The notes beneath the pieces are model-generated. The model ran no database searches. It saw only the letters and a program-made list of their open reading frames with translations, and was not told where the DNA came from. Made by a program: the position numbers and the translations under genes. This document shows positions 11,918 through 39,038 of a DNA stretch of 64,000 nt, in pieces (position 1 is the first letter of the stretch; each line of letters starts with the position of its first letter). This DNA comes from a virus. The stretch lies in IMG/VR virus record IMGVR_UViG_3300047321_000445, positions 33,311-97,310 of that record. One strand, given 5' to 3'.

Positions 11918-11927
11918 CACCCACAGA

Positions 11928-11976: not shown

Positions 11977-12019
11977 TCGCACCATCGGAAGTCACCTGAC
12001 ACCCGAGGAGAAACACGCC

Positions 12020-12943: not shown

Positions 12944-12954
12944 GAGACGCCCGG

Positions 12955-14085: not shown

Positions 14086-14096
14086 GGCCCCTCGAC

Positions 14097-14142: not shown

Positions 14143-14217
14143 CCGTGCGCTGGGACGGCTGCGGGTGGGCTAGTGTCGTCGGGCTGCGACACCTCCACAG
14201 TTTTCCCACGGTCCCGA

Positions 14218-14254
14218 TTGACATGCACGTTGGGTGGGGTGTACGGTCATGGCA
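14218..14254 (+). promoter_or_regulatory. Promoter of a likely leaderless gene
   Basis: TTGACA (14218-14223), an 18-bp spacer and TACGGT (14242-14247) place the start of transcription at or next to the ATG at 14,254, which has no Shine-Dalgarno. ATGCACGT[C/T]GGG and GTGTAC are shared with promoter copy 4 of the accessory array, suggesting common ancestry or a shared regulator. Confidence 0.65.
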
Positions 14255-21205: not shown

Positions 21206-21223
21206 CCAGAGAAGGGACCAGCC

Positions 21224-21499
21224 GTGTACGGCTCCCGTCGCTCCACCCTCATTGAGGCCGCGGCTGCCATCGGCCAGCGTGTCGTCGCCGCCGCCCGCCT
21301 GTTCTTCAACCTCGCGACCAGCTTCTCCGACTGGTCCCCGACCGGCTTGTACGCGGCGGCCGCCACCGCCCGCTACATGGCCGCGCACCAGCTGATCGAC
21401 CAGGCAGAACGCCAGGTCGACGGCGACCCCGACGTCACCTTGGACCAGGTCCGCCAGCCGCTGTGGTTCGGCGCTACGACGCTTCACGAGGAGCAGTGA
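21224..21499 (+). CDS. Small hypothetical transfer-region protein
   Basis: 91 aa; GTG 21224 follows GAAGGGACC. The first half is a hydrophobic amphipathic helix pair (TLIEAAAAIGQRVVAAARLF, LATSFSDWSPTGLYAAAATA) that may associate with the membrane; the C-terminus is acidic. No family known. Its stop overlaps the start of the next gene (TGATG), so translation is probably coupled within the transfer operon. Confidence 0.65.
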   Translation: MYGSRRSTLIEAAAAIGQRVVAAARLFFNLATSFSDWSPTGLYAAAATARYMAAHQLIDQAERQVDGDPDVTLDQVRQPLWFGATTLHEEQ

Positions 21500-22164
21500 T
21501 GACGACTCCCACCGGTTCCGGTGCCCGGACGACCCCGTACGACTGGAAAGACGACGCTGGCTCTGGGTGGGCCGGGAGCGACCCGAACGCGACGCGGCCG
21601 ACGCGACAGGCCCCGCCCCGGCCCCGTCCCGAGGCGAACGGCGGGGCCACGGCCGGCCCGCGCGTGTCCAAGGAGCGCAACATCCACGTGCACATCGGCG
21701 AGGGTGGCGACGGCAAGGACGGCGGCAAGGGCGGCGGCAAGGGTGGTAACGGTGCAGGTCAGGCCGCTTCCGGCGCGCCCGGCAACCACCAGGGCGACGG
21801 CATGATCGCGACTATCGAGCGCATCGAGTTCAAGTCGGAGAAAGACATCCTGGCCCTGGCCAAGGCCGTCAACCGGCTGGGCCGCGAGCTGCACTTCATC
21901 CTCGGCATGCGCGCCGAGGAGATCCAGGCCGTCCTGTCCACCTACAAGGGCAAGTGGTACACGTTCGGCGCCTCTTCGAGGGTCAAGGCCCGCCTGGTCG
22001 CCATGCACCTCAAGGTCAGCGCGGAGGCCGCGAAGGCCCTCGGTGTCGGCGCCCTGAAGATGGCGTACGCCTTTGACCGGCACTTCGTGAAGCCCGAGCA
22101 GGAAGCCAAGAAGCGGCGCAACGGCCAGAAGGCCCGCCGCGAGTTCACGATCGGAGAGGAGTAG
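21499..22164 (+). CDS. Transfer-region protein with Gly/Lys linker
   Basis: 221 aa; ATG 21499 overlaps the previous stop. Residues 1-95 are disordered, with a glycine/lysine repeat (GDGKDGGKGGGKGGNGAG). Residues about 105-200 are helical (MIATIERIEFKSEKDILALA, KAVNRLGRELHFILGMRAEE), and the C-terminus is strongly basic (KKRRNGQKARREF). The gene lies 5 bp before the TraB/FtsK gene, so it is probably a partner of the translocase. Name and function are unassigned. Confidence 0.7.
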   Translation: MTTPTGSGARTTPYDWKDDAGSGWAGSDPNATRPTRQAPPRPRPEANGGATAGPRVSKERNIHVHIGEGGDGKDGGKGGGKGGNGAGQAASGAPGNHQGDGMIATIERIEFKSEKDILALAKAVNRLGRELHFILGMRAEEIQAVLSTYKGKWYTFGASSRVKARLVAMHLKVSAEAAKALGVGALKMAYAFDRHFVKPEQEAKKRRNGQKARREFTIGEE

Positions 22165-22169
22165 CGGCC

Positions 22170-24293
22170 ATGGCCCGCGTCACCAGCACCACCAACGGCA
22201 AGACCGAGCAGGTCAACACGGCGCAGGCCACGGACCTCGTGCCGGTCGGCAAGGGGGGTGTCGTCTCCCACCTGCTCGGCAAGGCACTGCCGTACGCCTC
22301 TCCGTGGCTCGGCGCCGGTGCACTCCCGCCGCTCGCCGGGCTCGCCACGAACACCATGTGGGGCGACACCGCCGTCCACGCCGGGTTCGCCTCCGCAGGG
22401 CTCGGGATCGGCGGAGCCGTCCTCTCCGCTGTGACCTGGCAGGTTGCCGGGGGGAACAACAAGTTCCGTCGCTTCCGGCGCGCCCAGGCCACCGCGAGCG
22501 TGGCGGCGGGGATGGGCTGGCTGACGGCCGCGACCTCGGCCGGCCCGTTCGGCCACCCCATGATCGACCTGTGGCTGATGGGGGGCGGCCTGTTCGCCGC
22601 CTCCTGGAACATCCGGTCGGTCATGCGGAACGCCCACGACGAGACTGAGCAGGTCGAGGGCAAGAGCGGACTGGGCAAGATCGCTGAGGCGATCGGGCTG
22701 GAGAAGGTGAAGGTCAGGGACGCCAAGGGCAACGGCAAGGGCATGGTGAAGGCGGCCATCGAGGTCGCTCCCGGGGCGACCCTGGACGACGTGCAGGCGG
22801 CTCTCCCGAAGCTGACCGCGGCCCTGCACGTCCCCGGCTCCGGTGCCACCGTCACCAAGGACCTGGAAAACGCTGGTGAGGGCGTCATCAACCTGCGTGT
22901 CGCAGACCTGCTGAAGGACGGAGTCGAGTTCATACCGCCCATCCGGCTGGGCATGCTGCCGAACGAACCGCTGCCGCTCGGCCTGTACGCGGACGGCGAA
23001 GAGTTCATCATCAACCCGTTCGACGCCGAGATCCTCCAGCACCTGCTGGTCATGGGCGTCACCGGCGCAGGCAAGAGCGAGTTCGCCCGCGGCCTGCTCG
23101 CCCACCTGATGACCCGCCGCAAGATGACCGTGATGGTCGTCGACACCGCCAAGGGCCGTCAGTCCATGGGGCACATTGCCCACGGGGTGGACTGGTTCGT
23201 CACCACCACCCGCGAGGCAAAGCACCTGCTCAAGGCCCTGCCCGGGGCCATCCAGGCACGCGGCGACGTCCTCGCGGAAGAGGGCCTGGACCAGTGGACA
23301 CCCAAGTCCAGGCTGAACGCCATGGTGGTCTGGGTCGAAGAGGCCGCCGACCTCGCCGACTTCGCCGAGCTGGACGAGATCGCCCGCAAGGCGCGCTCGG
23401 TCGGCATCTGGCTGGTGATCTCGCTCCAGCGCGCGACCTGGACGAACGTGTCCACCGACGTCCGCGCCAACCTCCAGGCGTCCGCGTGCTTCGGCGTGGA
23501 CACCGCAGGGGACGCCGGATTCGGCCTGCCCGCCCGCGTGACCGACGCAGGCGCCATCCCGGACTGGGGCGCCACCCGACCCGGCTACGCCTTCGCCACC
23601 GGCATGGGAATCCCCGATAACCGCTGGACGATGGAGTGGCGCTCGGGCCTGACCGACCGGGAGTTCCTGTCCGCGCTGGTCACGGCCGCAACACCGTTCC
23701 GTGACCCGCTGGACGACACGACCGCGAAGGCCCTGGGTTTGGCGTACGCGCAGCGCACCCGCCCGGGCACGAACCGGATGAACATGCAGGCCAGCGAGGC
23801 GCAGGAGGCCAGCTCCGCTCAGCAGCTGCTGGCCGCCGCGCACGTGCTGGGCGAGGCACTGGAGGACGCCGGAGTGGACCTGAACAGTCTGCCCACGGGC
23901 AGCGACGACGAGCGCATCGAGGTGGAGATGGAGGACGCATACGCCGAGGTCATGGGCATGATCCCGGACGATCCGGAGCCGGGCGCGCCGTACGCGAACC
24001 TGGATCTGGACGACGACATGCCCGAAGACACCGACACCGGGATGGAGTTCGCGGAGCCCGAGAAGCTTCCGCCTGCGGACGCCCGGCGCCTGCTGCACGA
24101 GCAGCTGCACGAGTGGGCGCAGCGGGACCGGCTCACGTTCCAGCCTGCGGACCTGGCCCCGGTCACGGTCGCAGCCGGCCGGAAGCGGCCGTGGCTCCAG
24201 GGCGAGTTGAAGCGGCTGGTGGAGGCGGGTGTGCTGCGGCACGACTCGCACGGCGAGTACGACATCGTCCAGTCGCCGCTTGTGCCCGCATAG
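22170..24293 (+). CDS. FtsK/SpoIIIE-type DNA translocase (TraB-like)
   Basis: 707 aa; ATG 22170. The N-terminal 150 residues hold membrane segments (LPPLAGLATNTMWG, AGLGIGGAVLSAVTWQVAG, LWLMGGGLFAASW). The RecA-like motor has Walker A GVTGAGKS at about residue 296 and Walker B (MVVWVEEAADL) near 383. The last 60 residues are a winged helix similar in position to the FtsK gamma domain (LHEWAQRDRLTFQPADLAPV). Streptomyces TraB proteins move double-stranded plasmid DNA between mycelial cells without a relaxase. Context (DUF2637, GntR operators) favours conjugal TraB over chromosomal FtsK. Confidence 0.92.
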   Translation: MARVTSTTNGKTEQVNTAQATDLVPVGKGGVVSHLLGKALPYASPWLGAGALPPLAGLATNTMWGDTAVHAGFASAGLGIGGAVLSAVTWQVAGGNNKFRRFRRAQATASVAAGMGWLTAATSAGPFGHPMIDLWLMGGGLFAASWNIRSVMRNAHDETEQVEGKSGLGKIAEAIGLEKVKVRDAKGNGKGMVKAAIEVAPGATLDDVQAALPKLTAALHVPGSGATVTKDLENAGEGVINLRVADLLKDGVEFIPPIRLGMLPNEPLPLGLYADGEEFIINPFDAEILQHLLVMGVTGAGKSEFARGLLAHLMTRRKMTVMVVDTAKGRQSMGHIAHGVDWFVTTTREAKHLLKALPGAIQARGDVLAEEGLDQWTPKSRLNAMVVWVEEAADLADFAELDEIARKARSVGIWLVISLQRATWTNVSTDVRANLQASACFGVDTAGDAGFGLPARVTDAGAIPDWGATRPGYAFATGMGIPDNRWTMEWRSGLTDREFLSALVTAATPFRDPLDDTTAKALGLAYAQRTRPGTNRMNMQASEAQEASSAQQLLAAAHVLGEALEDAGVDLNSLPTGSDDERIEVEMEDAYAEVMGMIPDDPEPGAPYANLDLDDDMPEDTDTGMEFAEPEKLPPADARRLLHEQLHEWAQRDRLTFQPADLAPVTVAAGRKRPWLQGELKRLVEAGVLRHDSHGEYDIVQSPLVPA

Positions 24294-25020: not shown

Positions 25021-25030
25021 CCTCCCGTCC

Positions 25031-25069
25031 ACGGCCCCGGCCCCGAACTCCCTCGGGTGCCGGGGCCGT
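25031..25069 (+). terminator. Hairpin terminator
   Basis: ACGGCCCCGGC pairs with GCCGGGGCCGT across a 17-nt loop, directly after the membrane protein gene. TTGACG at its right edge may be the -35 box for the lipoprotein gene. Confidence 0.65.
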
Positions 25070-25117
25070 TGACGTGTGTCACACTGCGCGGTGGCTAACA
25101 CACGTCCAGGGGGGACC

Positions 25118-25447
25118 ATGCGCCACATCACCACCGCGGCGGCCGCCGTCTGCGCGGCCGCCGTGCTCGCGCTCACCGGCTGCTCCAGCTCCGACACCAG
25201 CAAGCCCGCCAAGCCTTCGCCGGCTGCGTCCTCGAGCGCCCCGGCGAAGCCGAAGCTGTCGGCGGCCGAGCAGATCAAGGCGTGCACCGATGCGATCGCC
25301 GCAGGGCAGGACAAGGGGGACGGCGCACCGGAGTGCACGGACCTGTCGGCGGACGACTACATGAAGGCGCTCCAAGACGCGAACGAGCAAGGCCGGGGCG
25401 GGTTGCAGAAGCTCATCGATGAGGCGTCGAAGTCGGCGCAGCCGTGA
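25118..25447 (+). CDS. Secreted lipoprotein
   Basis: 109 aa; ATG 25118 follows AGGGGGGACC. The signal peptide has a charged start (MRHITT), a hydrophobic core (AAAAVCAAAVLALTG) and the lipobox LTGC, so Cys22 would be lipidated at the cell surface. A Ser/Pro/Ala linker leads to a small acidic helical domain with two cysteines (KACTDAI, APECTDL) that could form a disulfide. Surface lipoproteins on phages and plasmids often act in entry exclusion; that is only a possibility here. Confidence 0.8.
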   Translation: MRHITTAAAAVCAAAVLALTGCSSSDTSKPAKPSPAASSSAPAKPKLSAAEQIKACTDAIAAGQDKGDGAPECTDLSADDYMKALQDANEQGRGGLQKLIDEASKSAQP

Positions 25448-25464
25448 TCTCGGTGGAACTCTGC

Positions 25465-25553
25465 TTGACAGAAAGATCGCACCGAGGCGACTATCTGCTT
25501 CGCTAGGTTCAATGCGCGTCAGGGTCACCCCTTCCACCCGGGGTGGCCCTTTT
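25465..25553 (+). ncRNA. Short promoter-terminator unit
   Basis: TTGACA (25465-25470), 18 bp and GACTAT (25489-25494) are followed about 25 nt later by a hairpin (GGGTCACCCC with GGGGTGGCCC, 25,522-25,549) and TTTT. A transcript of about 55 nt, or an attenuated leader of the next gene, would result. No open frame of note lies inside. Confidence 0.4.
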
Positions 25554-25572
25554 GCATGTCCCGGGAGCATCC

Positions 25573-25767
25573 ATGGCGTATACCCCCGTCCTCCTCGCCC
25601 CCGGCGATGTCGCCCACCTGATCCGGCGCCCTGTCGGCACGGTCACCCGCTGGGCGTCCGAGGGGCGGCTCACCTCCTACGACGGCATGTACGACTGGCT
25701 GGAGCTGCAAGACGTGGTCGCCGGACGCCTTCGCGTCCCGCCTGTCCGCCACGCTGCCGCGGCCTGA
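25573..25767 (+). CDS. Excisionase-like HTH protein
   Basis: 64 aa; ATG 25573 follows CCGGGAGCATCC. The whole protein is a MerR/AlpA-type helix-turn-helix (VLLAPGDVAHLIRRPVGTVT, RWASEGRLTSYDG), the size of small excisionases and element regulators. It lies just after a promoter and terminator-like hairpin, so its expression may depend on read-through. Targets unknown. Confidence 0.75.
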   Translation: MAYTPVLLAPGDVAHLIRRPVGTVTRWASEGRLTSYDGMYDWLELQDVVAGRLRVPPVRHAAAA

Positions 25768-25789
25768 ACCGACACCTGGGAGGCGCCTG

Positions 25790-25972
25790 GTGGCTAACGC
25801 TGCCCCCAACCCCACACCCGCCCCCGTCACCCGTGATGTAGCCCTCCAGCACGCTGCCCGTCTGCTCCTGGCCGCCGAGATGCTGACCGACCAGGCGCTC
25901 ATGGCCCGGTACGAGTCGCTTGCGGACTCGTGGATCGTGATGGCCCACACCCTCGGCGGCGACAGCGAGTAG
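25790..25972 (+). CDS. Very small hypothetical protein
   Basis: 60 aa; GTG 25790 follows GGGAGGCGCCTG. A Pro/Ala-rich start leads to two helices (RDVALQHAARLLLAAEMLTD, MARYESLADSWIVMAHTLGG). No motif is recognised. It is likely co-transcribed with the HTH gene 22 bp upstream and followed by a strong terminator. Confidence 0.6.
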   Translation: MANAAPNPTPAPVTRDVALQHAARLLLAAEMLTDQALMARYESLADSWIVMAHTLGGDSE

Positions 25973-25987
25973 ACCGCCCCATAGACC

Positions 25988-26022
25988 GGCCCCCTTCGCC
26001 TAGTGCTCGGGCGAAGGGGGCC
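25988..26022 (+). terminator. Intrinsic terminator
   Basis: A stem of GGCCCCCTTCGCC with GGGCGAAGGGGGCC followed by TTTCC. It separates the small HTH operon from the metabolic operon. Confidence 0.8.
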
Positions 26023-26030
26023 TTTCCACG

Positions 26031-26066
26031 CCTGCCGTCGCGTATTGAGGGGTGCGCGACGGCAGG
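26031..26066 (+). other. Perfect inverted repeat in the leader of the metabolic operon
   Basis: CCTGCCGTCGCG (26031-26042) pairs with CGCGACGGCAGG (26055-26066) around a 12-nt loop, only 9 bp after the terminator. With no U tract it is as likely an operator or leader structure as a second terminator. Confidence 0.5.
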
Positions 26067-26150
26067 CCCCCTCTTGCCCGGTCCCGGCCGCCGACTCCAC
26101 GGCCGGGACCGGTGCCCTCCTTCTCCGACGACTTCACGGGAGGCCGCCTC

Positions 26151-26885
26151 ATGCCGTGGCTCTTGGGCCGGGGAAACAGCGAGCTGGGCGCCGAAGGCAT
26201 CTACCACTGGTCGCTGCCCGCGTGGGTGGTCGAACTCCCGTGGGGTGGCCACTTCAACGTGTGTCCGTCCGCTTCGGCGTGCGCCCCCCTCTGTTACGCC
26301 AGGAAGGGCACTTACCAGTTCTCCAACGTCAAGGCCGCCCACATGCGGAACCTGCTGCTGACCTTGCAGGACCTGCCCGAGTTCGAGCGGCAGATGACTG
26401 AAGAGGTCCAGCACCCCCGCTACCAGGGCGGATACGTCCGCATTCACGACAGTGGGGACTTCCATAGCCAGGACTACCTGGAGGCGTGGCTGCGGATCAT
26501 CCGCTCCGCTAAGGGCGTTCGTTTTTACTGCTATACGAAGGAAGTCGCCCTCTTTCAGGACGTGGTGGAACCCGACCCGCCCGCCAACTTCGGCTGGGTC
26601 TACAGCCTCGGCGGCAAGCAGGACCAGGCCATCGACCTGGCCACCATGCGGCACGCCGACGTGTTCCCCAGCGAGGAAGCGATCGCCTACCACGGCTACG
26701 CCTCGCAAGACGCCTCCGACCTCCTCGCCGTCTACGGCGAAGACCTGCGGGTCGGCATCCCGGCGAACAACATCCCCCAACTGCGCCGCGAGCAAGGCAT
26801 GCAGTCCTTCGGCTCGCTCCAGCGCATCCGCGACAACCAGGCACAGGCCAAGTCCGGCCGGCGCCGCCCTTCCGACCCTGAGTGA
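26151..26885 (+). CDS. Phage Gp88-like protein with conserved cysteines
   Basis: 244 aa; ATG 26151 has GGGAGG 8 nt upstream, preferred to in-frame codons further back. The sequence resembles the actinophage gene product 88 family: NVCPSASACAPLCYAR (three cysteines, residues about 39-54), VRIHDSGDFHSQDYLEAWLR and RFYCYTKEV. The cysteine spacing recalls phage Gp37/Gp68-type proteins related to radical SAM barrels, but CxxxCxxC is not exact, so catalysis is uncertain. It is first in the operon that continues to the aldehyde dehydrogenase. Confidence 0.75.
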   Translation: MPWLLGRGNSELGAEGIYHWSLPAWVVELPWGGHFNVCPSASACAPLCYARKGTYQFSNVKAAHMRNLLLTLQDLPEFERQMTEEVQHPRYQGGYVRIHDSGDFHSQDYLEAWLRIIRSAKGVRFYCYTKEVALFQDVVEPDPPANFGWVYSLGGKQDQAIDLATMRHADVFPSEEAIAYHGYASQDASDLLAVYGEDLRVGIPANNIPQLRREQGMQSFGSLQRIRDNQAQAKSGRRRPSDPE

Positions 26886-26897
26886 TGAGGACCCCTC

Positions 26898-27701
26898 ATG
26901 CCTGCTGGCTACCTCGAAACCCGCGACGTCCCGATCGCCGACCTCACCCCCTACCCGGGCAACGCGAAGCGGGGCGACGTCGAGGCGATTCGCCGGTCCC
27001 TGACCCGTAACGGCCAGTACCGGTCCCTGATCGTGAGGCAGACCAGCGACGGCGCGCTGATCGTGCTCGCCGGAAACCACACGATGCAGGCCCTCGCCGC
27101 CAACGGCGAACAGACGGCGCGCTGCGAGGTCATCAGCTGCGACGACGCCGAGGCCAAGCGGATCAACCTCGCGGACAACCGGCTGTCGGAGCTGGGCACG
27201 TGGGATGACGGCGCGCTCACCGCGCTGCTGAAGGACGTGCAGGACGACCTGGAAGGCACCGGGTACGGGGCCGACGACCTGGACGAGCTGCTGCAAGCCA
27301 CGGGCGAACTCGCGGCCGGTGCGACGGAGTTCCTGACGGACTTCCTCACCCCGCCCCCGGCTGTGCCCGCCCCCGCGGCCCCGGTCCCTTCGGTCCCTTC
27401 GGCTCCGGGTACTCCCGGCCAGGAGGCGCCGGCTGCGGACACGGCGTCGGACGACACGGGCACCGTCCCGCCCCCGGCCCCGATCACCCCGGCGCAGCCG
27501 TACGAGCCGCCCCCGGCCGTGCCCGCGCCGACCGGGCCACTGGTGACGCCTATCCAGTGGATCGTCACCGTCGAGCAGCGCGACATCATCCGGGCCGCCC
27601 TCAAGCACGCCCAGGAGACGAACGGCCTGGACAACTCCTCCGCCGCCCTCACCGCCGTGTGCGCGGCCTACCTCGAAACCCAGGAGAGCAACCCCTCATG
27701 A
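26898..27701 (+). CDS. ParB/sulfiredoxin-fold protein with long linker
   Basis: 267 aa; ATG 26898, 12 bp after the Gp88-like gene. Residues about 8-125 form a ParB N-terminal domain as fused to phage DNA methylases: VPIADLTPYPGNAKRGD, LIVLAGNHTMQALAANGEQT, and INLADNRLSELGTWDDGAL. Residues about 150-220 are a Pro/Ala/Val linker, and the last 45 residues are helical (TVEQRDIIRAALKHAQETNG). ParB-type folds bind or hydrolyse nucleotides and some are nucleases; GNH instead of the usual GxHR is notable. The stop overlaps the cupin start. Confidence 0.8.
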   Translation: MPAGYLETRDVPIADLTPYPGNAKRGDVEAIRRSLTRNGQYRSLIVRQTSDGALIVLAGNHTMQALAANGEQTARCEVISCDDAEAKRINLADNRLSELGTWDDGALTALLKDVQDDLEGTGYGADDLDELLQATGELAAGATEFLTDFLTPPPAVPAPAAPVPSVPSAPGTPGQEAPAADTASDDTGTVPPPAPITPAQPYEPPPAVPAPTGPLVTPIQWIVTVEQRDIIRAALKHAQETNGLDNSSAALTAVCAAYLETQESNPS

Positions 27702-28195
27702 GCGAAACCCACGCCTACGGCCACAACCCCATCGACTATGGCCACGACGGTCCCAGCCTGAACATCGTTAACCTGGTCGACGCCATGGAGGCCATCAAGG
27801 TGGACGGTGTCCCCGTCCACGGCGCGGACGCGACCGGGCTGCCGCTGCACTCGAACGGCCACCTGGGTGTCGACATGCTGTCCGTGCCGCCGAACGCGCA
27901 GTTCCCGATCCATACCCACCCGGGCGACCACCTGCTGCTGTGCCTGGAAGGCGAGGGCACCATCACCATCGGCGACGTCACCTACGAGGTGGAGCCGGGC
28001 GACATCTACATGGTGCCCGGCGAGATCCCGCACGCCGTCGGCGCCGGGGGCGCCGGGCACGTCCTGATCGCGACCGGCTCGCCGCACAAGCCCGTCGACT
28101 CCCCGGAACGGATGACGTACACGGACTGGGCGGGCAACCCGACCGGTCGGCCCCTGTTCGTCGACATCGAGGCCGAGCCCGGGTCGGAGTCGTGA
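27698..28195 (+). CDS. Cupin-domain protein
   Basis: 165 aa; ATG 27698 overlaps the ParB-like stop (ATGA). Single-domain cupin with motif 1 HTHPGDHLLLCLEGEG (residues about 70-85) and motif 2 GDIYMVPGEIPHAVG (about 99-113), supplying His ligands for a metal. Cupins include isomerases, dioxygenases and sensors, so the reaction is not known. The stop overlaps the PP-loop gene (GTGA), implying stoichiometric expression with it. Confidence 0.82.
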   Translation: MSETHAYGHNPIDYGHDGPSLNIVNLVDAMEAIKVDGVPVHGADATGLPLHSNGHLGVDMLSVPPNAQFPIHTHPGDHLLLCLEGEGTITIGDVTYEVEPGDIYMVPGEIPHAVGAGGAGHVLIATGSPHKPVDSPERMTYTDWAGNPTGRPLFVDIEAEPGSES

Positions 28196-28977
28196 ACCAG
28201 CGCAAGCAGACACTGCGCGAACAGGACGACTGGGGCAAGCTGCGGGCCCGCGCCCGCGCCGAGTGGCCGGACGACAAGCTCGACAACCTGATCGACCGCA
28301 CGGTGGAGCAGATCAAGGACAGCGTCGGCGGCCGCCGTGCCGCGTACGCCTGGTCCGGTGGCAAGGACTCCATCGCCCTCGGCCACGTCGCCGAGCTCGC
28401 CGGGATCCACGACTGCGTCCTTGGCATCTCGAACCTCGAGTTCCCGGCGTTCCTTCAGTGGGTCACCGACCACATGCCGGACGGGCTGACCGTGGTCAAC
28501 ACCAGCCAGGATCTGCGCTGGCTGGCGAAGAACCCGAACATGCTGTTCCCGCAAGGCGCGTGGGGCCCGAAGTGGTTCACGGCCATCAACCACCGGTCGC
28601 AGGCCCGCTACTACCGGGACGAGAAGCTGGACGTGCTGCTGCTCGGACGGCGCCACTCGGACGGCAACTACACCGGCCCGGCTGGCGCGACCGAGTACAC
28701 CAACGCTCAGGGCATCACCCGCTCCTCGCCGATCGCGCACTGGTCCCACACGGCCGTGTTCGCGCTGATCGACCGGGAGAACCTGCCGATGCCGCCTTGC
28801 TACGACTGGCCGCGCGGCTACCAGGTCGGCACCGGCTCGTGGCCGGCCCGCCAGTGGACCAACAGCATCGACCACGGCTTCGAGGAAGTGTGGGCGATCG
28901 ATCCGGACGTGGTCCGTCAGGCCGCGCCCGTGCTGCCGCAGGCTGCGGACTGGATGGCACGCACCGGCCACGCCTGA
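28192..28977 (+). CDS. PP-loop ATP-pyrophosphatase (PAPS-reductase superfamily)
   Basis: 261 aa; GTG 28192 overlaps the cupin stop. The PP-loop SGGKDS lies at residues about 55-60 (AYAWSGGKDSIALGH) and binds ATP to adenylate a substrate. The remainder (SNLEFPAFLQWVTDHMPDGL, LLGRRHSDGNYTG, WSHTAVFALIDRENLPMPP) is like CysH-type enzymes acting on PAPS or on nucleic-acid substrates. The CysH C-terminal ECGLH motif is absent, so classical sulfate reduction is unlikely. The class II glutaminase follows directly, suggesting an amidation partner. Confidence 0.8.
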   Translation: MNQRKQTLREQDDWGKLRARARAEWPDDKLDNLIDRTVEQIKDSVGGRRAAYAWSGGKDSIALGHVAELAGIHDCVLGISNLEFPAFLQWVTDHMPDGLTVVNTSQDLRWLAKNPNMLFPQGAWGPKWFTAINHRSQARYYRDEKLDVLLLGRRHSDGNYTGPAGATEYTNAQGITRSSPIAHWSHTAVFALIDRENLPMPPCYDWPRGYQVGTGSWPARQWTNSIDHGFEEVWAIDPDVVRQAAPVLPQAADWMARTGHA

Positions 28978-28994
28978 GAAGGGAGCAACAACCC

Positions 28995-29591
28995 GTGTGC
29001 GGGATTTTCGCCTACACCGGGGACGGCGCTCCTGACCGCGAGTTGCTGACCGCCATCACCCGCGCCGCCGCCACCCGAGGGCCGCATGCCCACGGCTGGA
29101 CGGCCGGCGACCAGACACACCGGGCGCTCGGTCCGATGGACGCGGCCGCGGCCGCCCTCGCGTGCCAGGACGCCAGCCGGTGTCTGGGGCACGCGAGGCT
29201 GGCCACCTTCGGCCGGTACGACGACGAGGACGCCATCCAGCCCATCACCGTGAACGGCCACCATGTGGCGTTCAACGGCAACATCTACAACCCGGGCGAC
29301 GTCTACCCGGGCGAGTGGCCTGCCGACACGCACCACCTGGCGCACGCCTACGCCCGCCATCGGGCCGAGCACCCGCCCGGAGCAGCCCTCTCCCTGGCCT
29401 TGCGCCAGGCCGACATGGACGCGGGTGCCGTGGTGGTCCTCGACTCCTCCGGAACCCTCGTCTACTTCCGGCACCGGCTGCCGCTGTTCACCTACCGCAC
29501 CGGCAGCGGCTTCTACCTGGCATCCCGGCGCTTCCACCCCGACGCCGAAGCGGTGCCCGAAAACACTTACGTCCGCGAGGAGCCGCAGTGA
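28995..29591 (+). CDS. Stand-alone class II glutamine amidotransferase (glutaminase) domain
   Basis: 198 aa; GTG 28995 is chosen because translation gives M-C-G-I-F, placing the nucleophile Cys2 where N-terminal removal exposes it; GAAGGGAG lies upstream. Active-site parts are intact: GHARLATFG, AFNGNIYN and PADTHHLAHAY (compare Arg, Asn-Gly and Asp of asparagine synthetase B and GlmS). The enzyme should release ammonia from glutamine, but the protein ends after this domain with no synthetase half. Flanking PP-loop genes could provide the ATP-dependent half, a split asparagine-synthetase-like arrangement (inference). Confidence 0.85.
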   Translation: MCGIFAYTGDGAPDRELLTAITRAAATRGPHAHGWTAGDQTHRALGPMDAAAAALACQDASRCLGHARLATFGRYDDEDAIQPITVNGHHVAFNGNIYNPGDVYPGEWPADTHHLAHAYARHRAEHPPGAALSLALRQADMDAGAVVVLDSSGTLVYFRHRLPLFTYRTGSGFYLASRRFHPDAEAVPENTYVREEPQ

Positions 29592-30910
29592 GACAGTCGT
29601 CCGCGCCGTATGTCCACAAGAAAGTGACCCTCGACCGGGTGGACGTGGCCACCGACGTCTACACCCTCGCCTGCGAGCGCATGGCGTACGTGATGGACAA
29701 CTTCGACCGGGTACAGGTGCTGTTCTCGGGCGGCAAGGACTCGACTGCCGTCCTGAACGTCGCTCTCGCGGTCGCCCACTCCGATCCGCGGTTCGCCCGG
29801 CACCTGCCGCTGCGGGTGATCTTCTGGGACGAGGAGGCCATCCCGCAGGAGACCGCCGACTACGTGGCCCGCGTCGCAGCCCGCGACGACGTGGCGATGG
29901 AGTGGCTGTGCCTGCCGGTCCAGCACCGCAACGCGTGCTCTCGCGAACACCCGTACTGGTGGCCGTGGGCCCCGGAGGACGAAGCGAAGTGGTGCCGTCC
30001 GCTCCCGGAGCAGGCCATCACCCACGTGGACGGCTTCGAGACGTGGCCGCCCGAGAAGCGCATGTCCATCCCGGACATGTCGGGGCTGATGGCCCCGGCG
30101 CCGTACACCACGGCCGCCCTGATGGGCATCCGTGCGCAGGAGTCCCTGATCCGTACCCGGGCGGTCACCCGCCGCGCGGTCGACAACTACATCGTCTACC
30201 ACTCCGGGTCAAAGACGAACCAGGGCAACCTGTACAAGGCGTACCCGGTCTACGACTGGCGCACCGAGGACGTGTGGGCTGCGACCCGCAAGTTCGGCTG
30301 GGACTACAACAAGGCGTACGACCTGCTGGAGATGGCGGGTGTCGGCCCGAGTCTCCAGCGCTGTTCGCCCGCGTTCGGCGAGGAACCCCTCCAGAAGATC
30401 CACACGTACGCGCAGTGCTTCCCCGAGGTGTGGGGAAAGATGGCCGAACGCGTCCCCGGCATCGGCGCCGCCCAGCGCTACGCGCTCACCGAGCTGTACG
30501 CCTACCGGGACCGGCCCGACAAGCCCGCAGGCATGCCCTGGCCGGACTTCGTGACGCACTACGTGGCCAAGTTCCGGCCGGAAGACCAGCGGATGATCGC
30601 CGCTCGCCTCCGTGAGGAGATGACGAGCCACTACAAGAAGACCCGCGACCCGATCGTCTACAAGATGCCGCACCCGAACACGGGCATCTGCTGGCACTTC
30701 CTCCTGACCCTCGCGATGCGCGGCGACTTCAAGAAGCGCAAGCAGGCCGGGGCCCGCCTGAACAAGCCGGCCGCCCAGCTGTGGGCCGCCTACATCGCCG
30801 AGGTCGCCGAGATCGGCCAGGCCGGAACAGAGGCCGAGTACGCCCACCCGTTCGCCTGGCCCGCCGACCCGATCGCTCTCGTGCCCGAGAACGTCGACCT
30901 GATCCACTGA
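29588..30910 (+). CDS. IbrA-like PP-loop enzyme (DUF3440, PAPS-reductase family)
   Basis: 440 aa; GTG 29588 overlaps the glutaminase stop. SGGKDS lies near residues 47-52. Order and motifs match the DUF3440 proteins IbrA and YbdN of E. coli: FWDEEAIPQETADYV, WLCLPVQHRNACSREHPYW, WCRPLPEQAI, MSIPDMSG, MGIRAQESLIRTRAV, YPVYDWRTEDVWAATRKFGW and CSPAFGEEPL. IbrA and IbrB control immunoglobulin-binding protein expression in E. coli, but the reaction is unknown. The next gene is an IbrB homologue, as in those bacteria. Confidence 0.85.
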   Translation: MRQSSAPYVHKKVTLDRVDVATDVYTLACERMAYVMDNFDRVQVLFSGGKDSTAVLNVALAVAHSDPRFARHLPLRVIFWDEEAIPQETADYVARVAARDDVAMEWLCLPVQHRNACSREHPYWWPWAPEDEAKWCRPLPEQAITHVDGFETWPPEKRMSIPDMSGLMAPAPYTTAALMGIRAQESLIRTRAVTRRAVDNYIVYHSGSKTNQGNLYKAYPVYDWRTEDVWAATRKFGWDYNKAYDLLEMAGVGPSLQRCSPAFGEEPLQKIHTYAQCFPEVWGKMAERVPGIGAAQRYALTELYAYRDRPDKPAGMPWPDFVTHYVAKFRPEDQRMIAARLREEMTSHYKKTRDPIVYKMPHPNTGICWHFLLTLAMRGDFKKRKQAGARLNKPAAQLWAAYIAEVAEIGQAGTEAEYAHPFAWPADPIALVPENVDLIH

Positions 30911-30942
30911 CCCGCCCTCACCAGAAACCCGGTGATCCCCTC

Positions 30943-31491
30943 ATGACCGACCCCACCCCGACGGTCCCGGCCACTCCGGTCGGCGCCGACGCGCAGCCCC
31001 TCGCGAACATTCAGTGGATGCCGCGCGAGGCGCTGTCCGCGAACGACTGGAACCCGAACGTCCAGGCGCCGCCCGAGCACCGGCTGTTGGCCACCAGCAT
31101 CCTGGAGAACGGCTGGACGCAGCCGATCGTCGCCCGCGAGCAGAACGACGGCACATACGAGATCGTGGACGGCTTCCACCGCTGGACCGTCGCTGGCCGG
31201 CCTGCGGTCGCCGCCCTCACCGACGGGCTCGTGCCCGTGGTGGTGTTGCCGCCGACCGACCCGGCGACGGCGCGCATGGCGACCGTCCGCCACAACCGGG
31301 CACGCGGCACCCACCACGTCCTCGGCATGGCCGGGATCGTGGACGACCTGCTGAAGCTGAACATCTCGCCGGCCGAGATCAGCCGCCGTCTGGAGATGGA
31401 CCCCGAGGAAGTTGACCGGCTCGCCGACCGGGGCAACATGCTCAAGCGGCACGCCCCGGACGGCTTCAACAAGGGATGGACCGTCGCATGA
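30943..31491 (+). CDS. IbrB-like ParB-domain protein
   Basis: 182 aa; ATG 30943. Residues about 25-125 are a ParB N-terminal fold with IbrB features: NDWNPNVQAPPEHRLLATSI, QPIVAREQNDGTYEIVDGFH, RW (the GFHR motif) and MATVRHNRARGTHHVLGMAG. The end (ISRRLEMDPEEVDRLADRGN) is an HTH-like segment. It is paired with the IbrA-like gene and overlaps the aldehyde dehydrogenase start (ATGA). A regulator or a partner that presents substrate are both possible. Confidence 0.85.
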   Translation: MTDPTPTVPATPVGADAQPLANIQWMPREALSANDWNPNVQAPPEHRLLATSILENGWTQPIVAREQNDGTYEIVDGFHRWTVAGRPAVAALTDGLVPVVVLPPTDPATARMATVRHNRARGTHHVLGMAGIVDDLLKLNISPAEISRRLEMDPEEVDRLADRGNMLKRHAPDGFNKGWTVA

Positions 31492-32960
31492 CCGCCGCCG
31501 TGGACTACGACCGCCTGTACATCAACGGGCAGTGGCAGAAGCCGCTGGGGCGGGACCGGATCACCGTCATCAGCCCGGTCACGGAGGCCACGGTCGGCTC
31601 GTGCCCGGCCGGCTCGCCCGCCGACATCGACGCCGCGGTGACGGCCGCGCGCGAGGCGTTCGACTACGGGCCCTGGCCGCGCATGACCCGGGGAGAGCGG
31701 GCCGAAGCGCTCCAGCGCATGGCGTGGCTGTACGCCGACGGCGCGGCCGAGGCTGCCGAGCTGATCACGCTGGAGATGGGCTCGCCGGCCGCGTTCACCG
31801 CCCAGACCCAGCACCCGCGCGACATCTTCGAGTACTACCTCAGCTTGGTCTCCTCCGGGCGGGACCTGTTCGCCGAGCAGCGGGACGGGCACATCGTCAC
31901 CCGCGAACCGGTCGGCGTCTGTGCGCTGATCACGCCGTGGAACATGCCCCACAAGACGATCCTGATGAAGGCGATACCCGCGCTGTTGGCCGGGTGCACG
32001 CTCGTCATCAAGGCGGCCGTCTGGTCCCCGCTGTCGGCTCTGTGGCTCGCCGAGATCGCCGACGCCGCAGGCCTGCCAGCCGGTGTGTTCAACGTGGTTC
32101 CCGCCCGGCCGGACGCCGCCGAGCACCTGGTCGCCCACCCCGGTATCGACAAGATCGCATTCACCGGGTCGACGGCCACCGGTACTCGTATCGCGCAGCT
32201 CGCCGCACGGAACCTGACCCGGGTGTCGCTGGAGCTCGGGGGCAAGTCCGCGATGGTCATCCTCGACGACGCCGACGTGGACGCCGCCCTGCGCAGCGTG
32301 CTGGACAACAGCCTCGCGTGCTCCGGGCAGATCTGCTCGAACCAGACCCGGATCCTGGTCGCCCGCCCGCTGTACGACCAGGTGTGCAGCGCGCTTCAGG
32401 ACATGCTGGCGCTCGACCTGGCCGTGGGGGACCCGGCCGACCCGATGACACAGATCGGGCCGCTGGTGTCCCGCAAGCAGCTCGATCGGGCGCGCGCCGC
32501 GATCCACGCGCACGACACCCCGCCCCGCACGGGCGGCTACCGCCTGAACCGGGCCGGATGGTTCCTCAAGCCGACGCTGTTCACCGACGTCGACCCGGAC
32601 TCCGACCTGTTCAAGACGGAGGTGTTCGCCCCGGTCCTGGCGGTCACACCGTTCTCCAGCGACATGCAGGCCGTGCACCTGGCGAACGCCACCCCGTACG
32701 GGCTGGACGGGTCGGTGTGGTCCGCAAGCGGGGATCGGGCACACACGGTCGCGTCCGGGATCCGCACCGGCATGGTCCACATCAACGGCGCCCCGCACCC
32801 CATCTCGGCGCCGATCGGCGGCTTCAAGGCCTCCGGGATCGGCCGCGAACTCGGCCCGGAAGGGCTGCACGCGTTCACCGAGGTGAAGGCCACCATCACC
32901 GGCCGCGCGGCCGCGCCTGTCCCTGCGGGCATGCACCGCGGCGAGACCGGCGCCTGGTAG
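31488..32960 (+). CDS. NAD(P)-dependent aldehyde dehydrogenase
   Basis: 490 aa, full family length; ATG 31488 overlaps the IbrB-like stop. The enzyme oxidises aldehydes to acids. Visible motifs are ALITPWNMPHKTILMKAIPA (cofactor site), FTGSTATGTRIAQ, catalytic Glu249 in VSLELGGKSA and nucleophile Cys283 in GQICSNQTRI, with the C-terminal IGGFKASGIGRELGPEG typical of the superfamily. Nothing is truncated. It is most like the betaine/4-trimethylaminobutyraldehyde branch; the substrate cannot be set from sequence. A metabolic ALDH between a ParB gene and a terminase block is unusual phage cargo. Confidence 0.9.
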   Translation: MTAAVDYDRLYINGQWQKPLGRDRITVISPVTEATVGSCPAGSPADIDAAVTAAREAFDYGPWPRMTRGERAEALQRMAWLYADGAAEAAELITLEMGSPAAFTAQTQHPRDIFEYYLSLVSSGRDLFAEQRDGHIVTREPVGVCALITPWNMPHKTILMKAIPALLAGCTLVIKAAVWSPLSALWLAEIADAAGLPAGVFNVVPARPDAAEHLVAHPGIDKIAFTGSTATGTRIAQLAARNLTRVSLELGGKSAMVILDDADVDAALRSVLDNSLACSGQICSNQTRILVARPLYDQVCSALQDMLALDLAVGDPADPMTQIGPLVSRKQLDRARAAIHAHDTPPRTGGYRLNRAGWFLKPTLFTDVDPDSDLFKTEVFAPVLAVTPFSSDMQAVHLANATPYGLDGSVWSASGDRAHTVASGIRTGMVHINGAPHPISAPIGGFKASGIGRELGPEGLHAFTEVKATITGRAAAPVPAGMHRGETGAW

Positions 32961-32973
32961 AGAACGGGGGGAA

Positions 32974-33010
32974 GGGCGGGCACCCCTCGGGGGAGGGTGC
33001 CCGCCCCTTT
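32974..33010 (+). terminator. Intrinsic terminator after the metabolic operon
   Basis: A perfect 12-bp stem (GGGCGGGCACCC with GGGTGCCCGCCC) followed by CTTTT. It insulates the metabolic genes from the head genes. Confidence 0.85.
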
Positions 33011-33015
33011 TCACT

Positions 33016-33426
33016 ATGGCCAATGACCTGAGCGTGGGCGGCGACATGCTCGCCCACCAGAACCTGCTTCCACCCGAGCCCGAGGCCCCCGAAACGGTCG
33101 CCGACTATGCCGCCCTCGCGGACCGGCTGGCCGCCCGCTACCAGCACGCCATGCGCACGTACGACATGCCGGTGCTCATCGAGACGAGCGCCAACCATGC
33201 GGCCTGGCTGGTGTCGTGGGAGCCCGGACAGCGCAGGGACGCCGAGACCCGCCGCGTGTGCCGACTGGTCGCCGTCCTCGACGGCACCCTCACCGAACGC
33301 ACCCCGACCGGTGTCCGGCCCGTGCACCAGCACACCCAACGTTTCCACCCTCCCGGCTGCTGGCCCGAGCTCGTCAACGACACCACCCGCCCGGCCACAG
33401 CCGTACTCATCTACTTCCGGTCCTGA
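33016..33426 (+). CDS. Hypothetical protein, beta-rich
   Basis: 136 aa from ATG 33016, only 6 nt after the terminator U tract and with no clear Shine-Dalgarno, so the start is uncertain; later Met codons are possible. The C-terminal half (RRVCRLVAVLDGTLTERTPT, VHQHTQRFHPPGCWPELVND, AVLIYFRS) suggests a cupin-like beta barrel with His-x-His. No name assigned. It is the first gene before the packaging block. Confidence 0.6.
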   Translation: MANDLSVGGDMLAHQNLLPPEPEAPETVADYAALADRLAARYQHAMRTYDMPVLIETSANHAAWLVSWEPGQRRDAETRRVCRLVAVLDGTLTERTPTGVRPVHQHTQRFHPPGCWPELVNDTTRPATAVLIYFRS

Positions 33427-33453
33427 CCCCTCGCACCCTCACGGGAGGCAGCC

Positions 33454-33792
33454 GTGGACGACACCACACCCCTCAGCGACGAAGACCGTGCGAAGGCCAC
33501 GCAGGCCCTGAACCTGCGCCTGGCTGGCGTGGACTGGCACACCATCGCCACCCGCCTCGACTACGCCGACGCGGCCGACGCCCTCGAAGCCGCCACCGAA
33601 GTCGCCGACAGCCAGTACGACGGGCTGCCGATGGACCCGCTCCGCGTGCTGGAGATCCTGCGGTACGACCGGCTTCAGGCGGCTGTATGGCCGTCCGCGA
33701 TGAAGGGCGACCTGGCCGCAGTGGACCGGGCCCTGACGATCGGTGACCGCCGTACGCGCATGCTGCGCCTGAACCAGCGGAGCCGGGATTGA
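33454..33792 (+). CDS. Hypothetical protein preceding the terminase genes
   Basis: 112 aa; GTG 33454 follows CGGGAGGCAGCC. Helical, with an HTH-like pair in its first half (RAKATQALNLRLAGVDWHTI, ATRLDYADAADALEAATEV), similar in style to phage small terminase DNA-binding domains. Its stop overlaps the TTG start of the next gene. It could contribute DNA recognition in packaging; this is only positional inference. Confidence 0.65.
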   Translation: MDDTTPLSDEDRAKATQALNLRLAGVDWHTIATRLDYADAADALEAATEVADSQYDGLPMDPLRVLEILRYDRLQAAVWPSAMKGDLAAVDRALTIGDRRTRMLRLNQRSRD

Positions 33793-34379
33793 GCAGCCTG
33801 CGCCCCGAACGCGCCGACGGCGACAAGCCCAAGTGCGGCGCACAGAAACGCCAAGGCGCGCCCGGCGAGCTGTGCAGCTTCGTCGCCGGATGGGGAACCG
33901 ATCACGTCGGCACCGGACGGTGCCGGCTGCATGGCGGGAACACCCGCAACCAGCGGGCCGCGGCGAGGACGCAGCTTGCAGAGCAGCAGGCCCGCGCCGT
34001 GCTCGCCACGCTGGAAGTGACCCCGATCGACAACCCGTTCACCGCCCTCGCACGGCTGGCCGGGCAGGCCGTCGCCTGGCAGGACACCATCGCCGGAATC
34101 GTCAACGAGCTCGGCGACCGGATCCGCTACGAAGGCGCGGGCGGCAACGAGCAGCTGCGCGCCGAGATCCAGCTGTACGAGCGCGCGATGGACCGCTGCG
34201 CGCAAGTCCTCGGCACGATCGCCCGCCTGAACATCGAGGACCGCATGGCCCGCGTGTCGGAGAGGCAAGCCGAGATCGTCGTGACCGCGATCGAGGCCGC
34301 CCTCTCGTCCGCTGGCATCACCGGACGGGAGGCCGACGAGGCCCGCAAGGTCGCCGCCCGCCATCTGAGAGCCGTCTGA
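33789..34379 (+). CDS. Probable terminase small subunit (HGG-type)
   Basis: 196 aa from TTG 33789, overlapping the previous stop (TTGA). Residues about 13-50 carry the Cys/His pattern of actinophage small terminase-like proteins: KCGAQKRQGAPGELC, GWGTDHVGTGRCRLHGGNTR. The rest is helical and suited to oligomerise (QLAEQQARAVLATLE, LRAEIQLYERAMDRCAQVLG). Small subunits bind the packaging site and hand DNA to the large subunit encoded next. Confidence 0.75.
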   Translation: MSSLRPERADGDKPKCGAQKRQGAPGELCSFVAGWGTDHVGTGRCRLHGGNTRNQRAAARTQLAEQQARAVLATLEVTPIDNPFTALARLAGQAVAWQDTIAGIVNELGDRIRYEGAGGNEQLRAEIQLYERAMDRCAQVLGTIARLNIEDRMARVSERQAEIVVTAIEAALSSAGITGREADEARKVAARHLRAV

Positions 34380-34422
34380 CCTCCCTGTACGGCCGCCTGT
34401 ACCCCTCGCAGGAGGCGTTCCC

Positions 34423-35922
34423 ATGCTCGCTATCGCTGACCCGCTCGCCATGGCTGCTGACCGGCTGGAGGGCCGTTCTGAGGCTGGCGACCGGTACCCC
34501 ACCCCGCACGATCTGGCCCGCGAACTGGACCCGAAGATCGTGCGCACGCCCGCGCTTGAGCTGCTCGACGAAGTCCTCATCGACTGCGCCGAGGGCCGCA
34601 CGAACCGGCTGATCTTCTCCATGCCCCCGCAGGAGGGCAAGTCGCAGCGCGTCAGCCGCACCTTCCCGGCGTGGCTGCTGTCCCGCGACCCCGACCTGCG
34701 TATCGCCATCGCCTCCTACGAGGCGAACACGGCGCGCCGCTGGGGCCGCGCGGTCCGCAACGACATCAAGGGAAACCCGGACAAGTTCGCGCTGCGGATC
34801 CGCCGAGACACCTCCTCCGCCATTGAGTGGCAGGTCGAGGACCACCAGGGCGGCGTGTACAGCGTCGGTATCGGGGGTGCCCTCACCGGCCGCCCGGTCG
34901 ACGTGTTGATCATTGACGACCCGGTCAAGGGCCGTGCACAGGCCGAATCGGAGACGTTCCGGCAGGCCGCATGGGACTTCTGGACCGACACGGCCCGCAC
35001 GCGTTTCGGTCCCAACACCGTCGTTGTCGTGGTCCTCACCCGCTGGCATGAGGACGACCTCGCCGGGCGGCTCCTCGCGCAGGACGTCCGCAAAGAGTGG
35101 CGGTACATCAACATCCCGGCCGAGGCCGACCACGACCCCTACAAGGGGGAGACGGATCCGCTCGGCCGCGAGCCGGGCGAGTTCCTGTTGTCCGCCCGTG
35201 GCCGCACCGCCAAGGACTGGCAGGACACCAGGGACGACGTCGGCTCGCGTACCTGGACGTCGCTGTACCAGGGCCGGCCTGCCCCGGCCGAGGGCGGCCT
35301 GTTCAAACGAGGGGACTGGCGCTGGTACGTCGCCCCGAAGGCGGTCCGCCGCCAGGACGGCACGATGTGGGTCCACGACGCGGACGAGATCATCCAGTCG
35401 TGGGACATGGCGTTCAAAGACACCAAGGGCTCGGACTATGTCGTCGGGCAGGTGTGGGCCCGGTTCGGGGCCAGCGTGTACCTGCTGGACCAGGTCCGTG
35501 ACCGGCTCGACTTCCCGGCCACGCAGCAGGCCGTCAAGGCACTGTCGGCGAAGTGGCCGCAGACGTTCGCAAAGCTCGTCGAAGACAAGGCGAACGGCCC
35601 GGCGATCATCGCCCAGCTTCAGGCGACCGTGCCCGGTCTGATCCCGATCACCCCGAAAGACTCCAAATACGCGCGCGCGTCGGCCGTGGCGCCGTTCGTC
35701 GAAGCGGGAAACGTGTGGCTGCCCGATCCGTCGTTCGCCCCGTGGATCGAAGACTTCGTCTCCGAACTCGGAGGCTTCCCGAACGGCAGCAATGACGACC
35801 AGGTCGACACCACCAGCCAGGCCCTCCAGCGGCTGCTGGCCGGACAGTTCAGCGCCGACCAGGCCATGGACTGGCTCCGCGGCTACGGCAACAACCCGAA
35901 CCCCGAGGGAAGGCAGCAGTGA
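34423..35922 (+). CDS. Terminase large subunit
   Basis: 499 aa; ATG 34423 follows GCAGGAGGCGTTCC. The ATPase half has a Walker A variant in MPPQEGKSQR (residues about 67-75) and Walker B VLIIDDP (about 161-167). The RNase H-like nuclease starts at QSWDMAFKDTKGSDYVVGQV (about 325) with later acidic residues ED (KLVEDKANGPAI) and D (GSNDDQVDT). This motor cuts and pumps phage DNA into proheads. Length and layout are typical of terminase_6-type actinophage enzymes. Confidence 0.93.
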   Translation: MLAIADPLAMAADRLEGRSEAGDRYPTPHDLARELDPKIVRTPALELLDEVLIDCAEGRTNRLIFSMPPQEGKSQRVSRTFPAWLLSRDPDLRIAIASYEANTARRWGRAVRNDIKGNPDKFALRIRRDTSSAIEWQVEDHQGGVYSVGIGGALTGRPVDVLIIDDPVKGRAQAESETFRQAAWDFWTDTARTRFGPNTVVVVVLTRWHEDDLAGRLLAQDVRKEWRYINIPAEADHDPYKGETDPLGREPGEFLLSARGRTAKDWQDTRDDVGSRTWTSLYQGRPAPAEGGLFKRGDWRWYVAPKAVRRQDGTMWVHDADEIIQSWDMAFKDTKGSDYVVGQVWARFGASVYLLDQVRDRLDFPATQQAVKALSAKWPQTFAKLVEDKANGPAIIAQLQATVPGLIPITPKDSKYARASAVAPFVEAGNVWLPDPSFAPWIEDFVSELGGFPNGSNDDQVDTTSQALQRLLAGQFSADQAMDWLRGYGNNPNPEGRQQ

Positions 35923-36278
35923 CCACCGAGCCTGAGCCTGTCGAACAGCCCGCTTTCTGCACGCACCGGCCGCTGCCGGGCCAGCTCCTGACGGCCGGCT
36001 GTCCGGACTGCGGGCACGCGTTGATCGTGCACATCGGAGTGGAGCACTGCCCCGTGTGCGAGATGCAGCACCTCAACCAGCAGGCCCGCGCCGCCACGGT
36101 CACGTGGGATCAGGTCGTGCGGGGCGAGGTCAGCATCAACGCGTACCGGGCCGCTCGCGGACTGCCGCCCGCACCGGCCGGGATCGTCGGTCTGTCCGAC
36201 CGGGAAGTCGACGCCGCCGTGGAACGCATCCTCGTCCGTGTCGGCCGCTCCCGCTCCCTGCGCCGCCCGTACACCTGA
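35919..36278 (+). CDS. Small zinc-ribbon protein between terminase and portal
   Basis: 119 aa; GTG 35919 overlaps the terminase stop. Residues about 12-47 have CTHRP, CPDCGHALIVHIG and CPVCEMQH, a zinc ribbon. The C-terminus is basic (RVGRSRSLRRPYT). Small proteins of this kind often sit here in Streptomyces phages; function unknown. Confidence 0.7.
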   Translation: MTTEPEPVEQPAFCTHRPLPGQLLTAGCPDCGHALIVHIGVEHCPVCEMQHLNQQARAATVTWDQVVRGEVSINAYRAARGLPPAPAGIVGLSDREVDAAVERILVRVGRSRSLRRPYT

Positions 36279-36306
36279 CCCCCCCTTACGCAGGAATGGA
36301 GGCGCC

Positions 36307-38994: not shown

Positions 38995-39038
38995 CCCCGC
39001 TCTCTTTCGCGCGCCCGCGCACCGGGCGAGGAGGAACC

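Follow-up and report, generated by a model that had tools for sequence, protein, structure and literature searches.

A conserved phage core of two PP-loop/ParB pairs that is exchanged for DNA-modification genes before the terminase: a candidate DNA-hypermodification cassette

Do eight adjoining genes that lie directly before the packaging genes of an uncultured virus form one functional set and, if so, what would that set act upon? The question is raised by positions 26151-32960 of the window, the 64,000-nucleotide stretch analyzed here, which makes up the right part (positions 33,311 to 97,310) of the 97,310-bp IMG/VR virus record IMGVR_UViG_3300047321_000445 and whose genome-derived nearest relatives come from Streptomyces. 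An initial annotation, made from the letters alone, had read the segment as an operon of Gp88, ParB, cupin, PP-loop, glutaminase, IbrA, IbrB and aldehyde dehydrogenase (ALDH) genes and had proposed a pathway modifying DNA, RNA or a small molecule. We find two PP-loop/ParB pairs, PPlA with ParB1 and IbrA with IbrB, immediately before the terminase genes, and in relatives known DNA-modification enzymes take the place of this core en bloc. On balance, sequence comparisons make it probable that we are dealing with a phage DNA-hypermodification cassette, the target of which we infer to be DNA.

The conserved core and its companions

The + strand does contain all eight reading frames, and Pfam and PHROG uphold the families initially assigned to them. 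Four of them are core families: the ParB-like domain protein ParB1 (26898-27701), assigned through PHROG 723/620 with no Pfam ParB_N match; the PP-loop ATP pyrophosphatase PPlA (28192-28977; PAPS_reduct, 4e-8); the second PP-loop enzyme IbrA (29588-30910; PAPS_reduct and DUF3440, PHROG 2302); and the second ParB-like protein IbrB (30943-31491; ParB_N 6e-8, PHROG 2159). A scan for PPlA yielded 79 loci from viral contigs and a further 59 from a one-genome-per-species scan. Each family was looked for, by its own profile, in 143 loci matching PPlA. IbrA accompanied PPlA in 137 of these loci, IbrB in 136 and ParB1 in 132. Most loci short of a core gene are contig ends; among the 6 loci without IbrA, 5 are truncated contigs and 1 (L067) resembles a deletion. 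The count includes 4 loci (L083, L092, L093 and L099) with merely a distant PP-loop relative, three of which sit on a very long branch of the PPlA tree. Across 93 loci, the four core proteins gave correlated pairwise distances (r 0.71-0.92), with 0 of 500 permutations equally high, and the four core gene trees agree. Finally, the module is located upstream of at least 4 groups of terminase large subunit (TerL) without mutual BLAST similarity. Taken together, core retention, congruent distances and unrelated terminases indicate that the core moves as a unit and stays before packaging genes.

The conserved unit is therefore PPlA, ParB1, IbrA and IbrB. The full eight-gene order recurs in L004 and in Streptomyces cavernae (L163) and the four-gene core was found again in more than 120 loci, so the gene set is not a product of chance; the random subsets that would have spoken against a functional set did not appear. 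The initial suggestion of such a set holds for a conserved group beside packaging genes, with the four-gene core rather than all eight genes as its unit. An eight-gene unit was rejected because relatives keep only the core, and because Gp88 and ParB1 stay beside a methyltransferase cassette in a relative described below. Prophages with the core were found in gut Bacillota and Bacteroidota, Streptomyces and one Gemmatimonadota bin. Cultured strains carrying the cassette include Streptomyces cavernae SYSU K10008 (L163), Acetatifactor muris DSM 23669 (L167) and Flavonifractor sp. An100 (L200). PPlA itself was present in 1 of 50,697 phage records, an uncultured faecal contig, and through this rarity the core has escaped study.

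The remaining genes are less widely shared. The single-domain cupin (27698-28195; Cupin_2, 8e-15) and the class II (Ntn) glutamine amidotransferase (28995-29591; GATase_6, 2e-6) are secondary members, present in a minority lineage, and the ALDH (31488-32960; Aldedh, 5e-137), confined to an actinobacterial group, belongs to the closest kin of the window only (window, L004, L163, L002 and L005). The amidotransferase query recovered one locus in the viral scan, and cultured phages gave zero matches to amidotransferase or cupin. Arthrobacter phage amidotransferases occur in an amidoligase context, outside the four-gene core, and ALDH matches among phage records were numerous and unspecific. Gp88 (26151-26885; PF17338, E 2e-55) is a flank of the swapped cassette.

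The initial annotation had also described almost every junction as a 4-nt overlap. ATGA or GTGA overlaps are found at 4 of 7 junctions (ParB1/cupin, cupin/PP-loop, glutaminase/IbrA and IbrB/ALDH, the last assuming that ALDH starts at 31488). At the remaining junctions the genes are separated, Gp88 from ParB1 by 12 nt, the PP-loop gene from the glutaminase gene by 17 nt and IbrA from IbrB by 32 nt. Since further 4-nt overlaps occur outside the operon in the same phage (33789/33792 and 35919/35922), we take them as evidence for translational coupling and nothing beyond.

Several variants of the core were observed. By inspection, LAGLIDADG-like homing endonuclease genes lie between IbrA and IbrB in L004 (4860-5375) and L002 (14606-15166), an HNH-like one occupies the same place in L051 (11551-12045), and L163 carries an insert similar to those of L002 and L004; the window has no such insert. 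The intervening gene was accordingly rejected as a member of the system. L002 harbors three tandem IbrA copies in one cassette (10361-14546) and L010 harbors two. In Eubacterium plexicaudatum ASF492 (L196 5273-9630) a ~3.3 kb insertion splits the PPlA gene. A variant spanning L083-L101 combines ParB, a two-domain cupin with conserved motifs HTHPSxR and HPMINRT, sometimes a distant PP-loop gene, IbrA and IbrB. These bicupins gave zero ureidoglycine aminohydrolase matches, and this activity is not claimed for the cupin of the window either, its match being weak (7.6e-4) and far below cut-off. In L102-L162, IbrA and IbrB occur as a pair with no PPlA, amidotransferase or importer nearby and IbrB is mostly longer, an arrangement suggesting that the pair can act alone.

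Exchange with DNA-modification genes in the pre-terminase slot

What occupies this position when the module is missing? We compared terminase relatives of the window and of a Bacillota phage, L018. In the window, a presumed small subunit (33789-34379, +) directly precedes TerL (34423-35922, +); both were assigned by position, and the latter shares 75% DNA identity with the terminase annotated in Arthrobacter phage Kukla. The most informative relative, L242, aligns to window positions 25029-27681 (80%) and 33502-40000 (79-82%), while in place of the stretch in between (27682-33501, +) L242 has its positions 5010-7417, with genes for a ParB, a C5-cytosine DNA methylase (PF00145, E 3e-59) and a second ParB. 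Gp88 and ParB1 border on the exchanged stretch, and they likewise accompany the methyltransferase of L242. The cassette is thus interchangeable with known DNA-modification genes at one locus. In L241, whose terminase is 90% identical, the swap position holds the end of an ABC-GNAT protein with a homologue (37% identity) in L233, where it comes after a ParB. The swapped stretch of the window also encloses a 136-aa open reading frame (33016-33426, +) with no family match and partial matches in L004 and L163.

Similar contents were found in the same slot of L018 terminase relatives without the module: a ParB-N6/N4 methyltransferase with a C5 methyltransferase (L229), a ParB-methyltransferase (L231), an N6_N4 methyltransferase (L232), a ParB with Mom (L235; PF25680, E 2e-52) and a ParB with ABC-GNAT (L233). 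Nothing recognizable was found in the pre-terminase slot of L230, L236 and L237. DNA-modification genes are thus found in this slot time and again, and ParB proteins repeatedly accompany them. ParB1 itself belongs by sequence to the ParB families of phage ParB-DNA methyltransferases (PHROG 498; E 1e-26 for the window, 8e-31 for L030). The cassette of the window resembles Mom and ParB-DNA methyltransferase cassettes in its slot upstream of the terminase and in its ParB partner but differs in chemistry, as it contains neither a methyltransferase nor Mom. Before the terminase of L225 (4213-6976), a PIG-L deacetylase gene is accompanied by genes for a weak ParB relative and a WbqC-like protein; this could be one more DNA-modification set.

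These exchanges bear on a different account, in which a lysogen metabolic or fitness cassette would turn an imported or self-made nitrogenous compound into a metabolite via the PP-loop enzymes, DNA not being the target. Such a role would suit the importer and porin found in many relatives (see below), the ALDH, which scores best, though far short of the cut-offs, against aminobutyraldehyde and betaine-aldehyde dehydrogenases, and the terminator-like hairpins that bound the window operon, one with a 14-bp stem before it (25988-26022, +; -32.3 kcal/mol, z -5.4) and a strong one after it (32968-33012, +; -34.8 kcal/mol, z -2.8). Against it stand the fixed site beside unrelated terminases, the precise replacement of the module by cassettes with a DNA methyltransferase or Mom, and two ParB proteins of a kind that goes with DNA methyltransferases; we regard it as unlikely.

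Enzyme chemistry and two modes of supply

Both PP-loop enzymes retain an intact ATP motif (SGGKDS). The PPlA model (predicted local distance difference test, pLDDT, 94.7) has a divergent PP-loop fold that Foldseek places about equally near 3'-phosphoadenosine-5'-phosphosulfate (PAPS) reductase, TtuA, the GMP synthetase ATP-pyrophosphatase and TilS (template modeling scores ~0.5). No invariant Cys was present in an alignment of 46 PPlA sequences, which argues against reduction or Fe-S chemistry and for ATP activation without redox. Pfam and PHROG names nevertheless point to sulfur assimilation, in which these "PAPS reductases" would reduce PAPS or adenosine-5'-phosphosulfate (APS); PP-loop genes were annotated in this way and called host metabolism in one study (PMC11318856), and a similarly named gene was treated as auxiliary metabolism in another (PMC10434257). 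Given that PPlA lacks the catalytic Cys of CysH-type enzymes, that the cassette has no other sulfate gene and that the core seldom parts from ParB genes, this assignment is scarcely credible, and PPlA was rejected as an assimilatory PAPS/APS reductase.

IbrA is closest to the adenylating enzymes FAD synthase and CysD and has a single nearly invariant Cys (C108). Its weak similarity to DndC (TIGR03183, 5.5e-5; PADLOC DndC, 3e-7), together with a DndB-type reading of IbrB and ParB1, would fit a phosphorothioate-like modification of the DNA backbone, and the pairing of a PP-loop DndC-like protein with a ParB-like DndB-type protein does weakly recall Dnd/Ssp systems. Yet no cysteine desulfurase was found in the 97-kb record (a host enzyme could substitute) and no DndD or DndE adjoins; one nearly invariant Cys in IbrA and zero in PPlA contrast with the multiple Fe-S or sulfur-carrying cysteines of DndC-type proteins; and sulfur chemistry does not suit the amidotransferase, the cupin or the importer. 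Membership in Dnd/Ssp was rejected for want of its defining genes, and a backbone modification of the phosphorothioate type is very unlikely.

IbrA and IbrB were named as coactivators of prophage genes in E. coli ECOR-9 (J Bacteriol 2002;184:3640, as relayed by PMC10434257; PMC5874904), and this literature naming would favor a regulatory module in which the other genes are separate cargo. The proteins of the window are members of the same families, but unlike the ECOR-9 pair they sit in a larger core with PPlA and ParB1. Both PP-loop enzymes retain the ATP motif and are co-inherited with PPlA and ParB1, and activation in E. coli could itself result from DNA modification, which leaves a purely regulatory role highly improbable. 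No biochemical role for IbrA or IbrB was found in the literature.

The companion enzymes of the window retain their active-site residues. The amidotransferase shows the N-terminal Cys nucleophile, Arg, Asn-Gly and Asp of class II enzymes, with C2, R68, N94 and G95 invariant and D111 in at least 90% of the alignment. The four invariant His of the cupin (H72, H74, H78 and H112) are intact, and the ALDH motifs GQIC and ELGG are present by inspection.

In most relatives these companions give way to transport. A membrane transporter is located upstream of PPlA in 126 loci from Bacillota, Bacteroidota or viral contigs resembling them, immediately so in most Bacillota-type loci. Some loci encode a symporter of the SSF family (PF00474), others a shorter and divergent relative (hhalign probability 82%, E 1e-5); the best solved relatives of the symporter profile are the urea-proton symporters DUR3 (E 4e-29) followed by choline transporters. 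Bacteroidota loci encode an extra ~200-aa protein with an N-terminal signal-like helix, which was modelled as a 12-strand barrel (pLDDT 84.8) like the KdgM and NanC porins and is a predicted outer-membrane porin. Importer-free loci carry a class II amidotransferase and/or cupin. Out of 18 loci with these genes, 2 have both transporter and amidotransferase; one truncated locus has neither. In the window group, amidotransferase and cupin take the place of the importer and the closest kin add ALDH; no SSF protein was found in the 97-kb record. The alternation is suggestive of functional substitution, resting on few events: the PPlA tree needs ~4 changes only, and repeated independent origins were dropped as a claim for this reason.

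A proposed mechanism and its implications

Among the targets initially proposed, nucleic-acid modification is the best reading. We favor DNA hypermodification because of the L242 swap and the modification enzymes in the same slot of other terminase relatives, the kinship of ParB1 to the ParBs of phage DNA methyltransferases, the retention of the core in nearly all 143 loci beside unrelated TerL families, the PPlA fold without invariant Cys next to an amidotransferase with all catalytic residues, the DUR3-like importer with its KdgM/NanC-like porin model, and the CmoY precedent. Most of the weight lies with the swap and the transporter variant, neither of which is visible in the window by itself. 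An RNA target, such as transfer RNA (tRNA), or another anti-defence nucleic-acid chemistry would be in line with PP-loop enzymes like TilS, TtuA and TiaS, and TtuA and TilS are among the Foldseek neighbours of PPlA. As no RNA-binding domain was seen, the slot is common to DNA enzymes and the ParB partners are DNA-associated, we judge it decidedly unlikely.

Our best reading by analogy is an ATP-dependent cassette analogous to CmoA/CmoX/CmoY and 7-deazaguanine systems and a member of neither. CmoA/CmoX/CmoY is the closest worked-out precedent for the mechanism: the AMP-forming phage amide ligase CmoY joins glycine to carboxymethylcytosine in DNA, and CmoY-related ligases have a glutaminase domain of the glutamine-ammonia type and ParBc neighbours (PMC12783734). 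What the two share is a phage setting, a ligase of the AMP-forming type, ParBc neighbours and a varying nitrogen donor; unlike CmoA/CmoX/CmoY, the cassette of the window has two PAPS-reductase-type PP-loop proteins and most relatives add importers. Membership was rejected, since the 97-kb record, which may be incomplete, gave no match to the CmoA Cx-SAM synthase (TIGR00740) or to the CmoY asparagine-synthetase-type ligase (Asn_synthase, PF00733) and only one partial, sub-cut-off match, outside the window, to the CmoX C5-cytosine carboxymethyltransferase. Phage 7-deazaguanine systems (Gat-QueC/DpdA, PMC6884629) likewise pair a class II amidotransferase with a neighbouring PP-loop enzyme; neither TGT/DpdA (PF01702) nor QueC (PF06508) matched in the record, and membership was rejected.

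In the proposed mechanism, the PP-loop enzymes would adenylate, at the expense of ATP, a group carried by a DNA base, a precursor nucleotide or a ligand, and would then couple the activated group to a nitrogen nucleophile. ParB proteins may steer them to DNA or serve as nucleotide-binding partners, and the mark would be set prior to packaging and protect against restriction. In the window version, the amidotransferase would provide glutamine-derived ammonia, like a split asparagine synthetase, and cupin and ALDH may make, prepare or finish a carboxyl group. In Bacillota and Bacteroidota versions, the phage DUR3-like symporter, with the outer-membrane porin in Bacteroidota, would import the nucleophile or ligand. 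We advance as possible rather than probable the wider proposal of a new DNA modification by two ParB/PP-loop pairs, with a building block either imported (symporter, Bacteroidota porin) or made locally (amidotransferase, cupin, ALDH); the amidation details are doubtful.

Several points weigh against DNA hypermodification. The slot argument is contextual, DNA-modification genes being common beside terminases, and no more than about half of the relatives inspected that lack the module had an obvious modification gene. A dedicated importer is unusual for DNA modification and equally suits a metabolite pathway, and its alternation with the amidotransferase reflects few evolutionary changes. The hairpins allow expression of the operon separately from late genes. 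Finally, no enzyme was identified for attaching the first handle to DNA.

Elsewhere in the window, positions 20000-23785 encode FtsK/SpoIIIE and DUF2637 genes and share ~80% DNA identity with the Streptomyces plasmids FR1 (NC_017833) and F2 (NC_023067); given this identity the element may be a phage-plasmid. At 10615-14085, genes for a radical-SAM protein (CQLSCGHCYAESG) and an isoaspartate-methyltransferase-like protein adjoin that of a GntR-like regulator (- strand); together they may constitute a small cluster of the type making ribosomally synthesized and post-translationally modified peptides (RiPP-like).

As the initial annotation had supposed, we found no paper describing this composition, nor a description of the core, its importers (a phage-encoded importer beside such a core included) or the swap; phage DNA-modification cassettes as such were already known. 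The filing of core enzymes as sulfur-metabolism genes ("PAPS reductase") misleads surveys of auxiliary metabolism. If the favored reading is true, the core would represent a widespread phage DNA modification that matters for the evasion of restriction and for efforts to sequence or clone gut phages. A phage that encodes the import of its modification substrate would introduce a new principle, in which viruses draw on an external solute for decorating their genomes.

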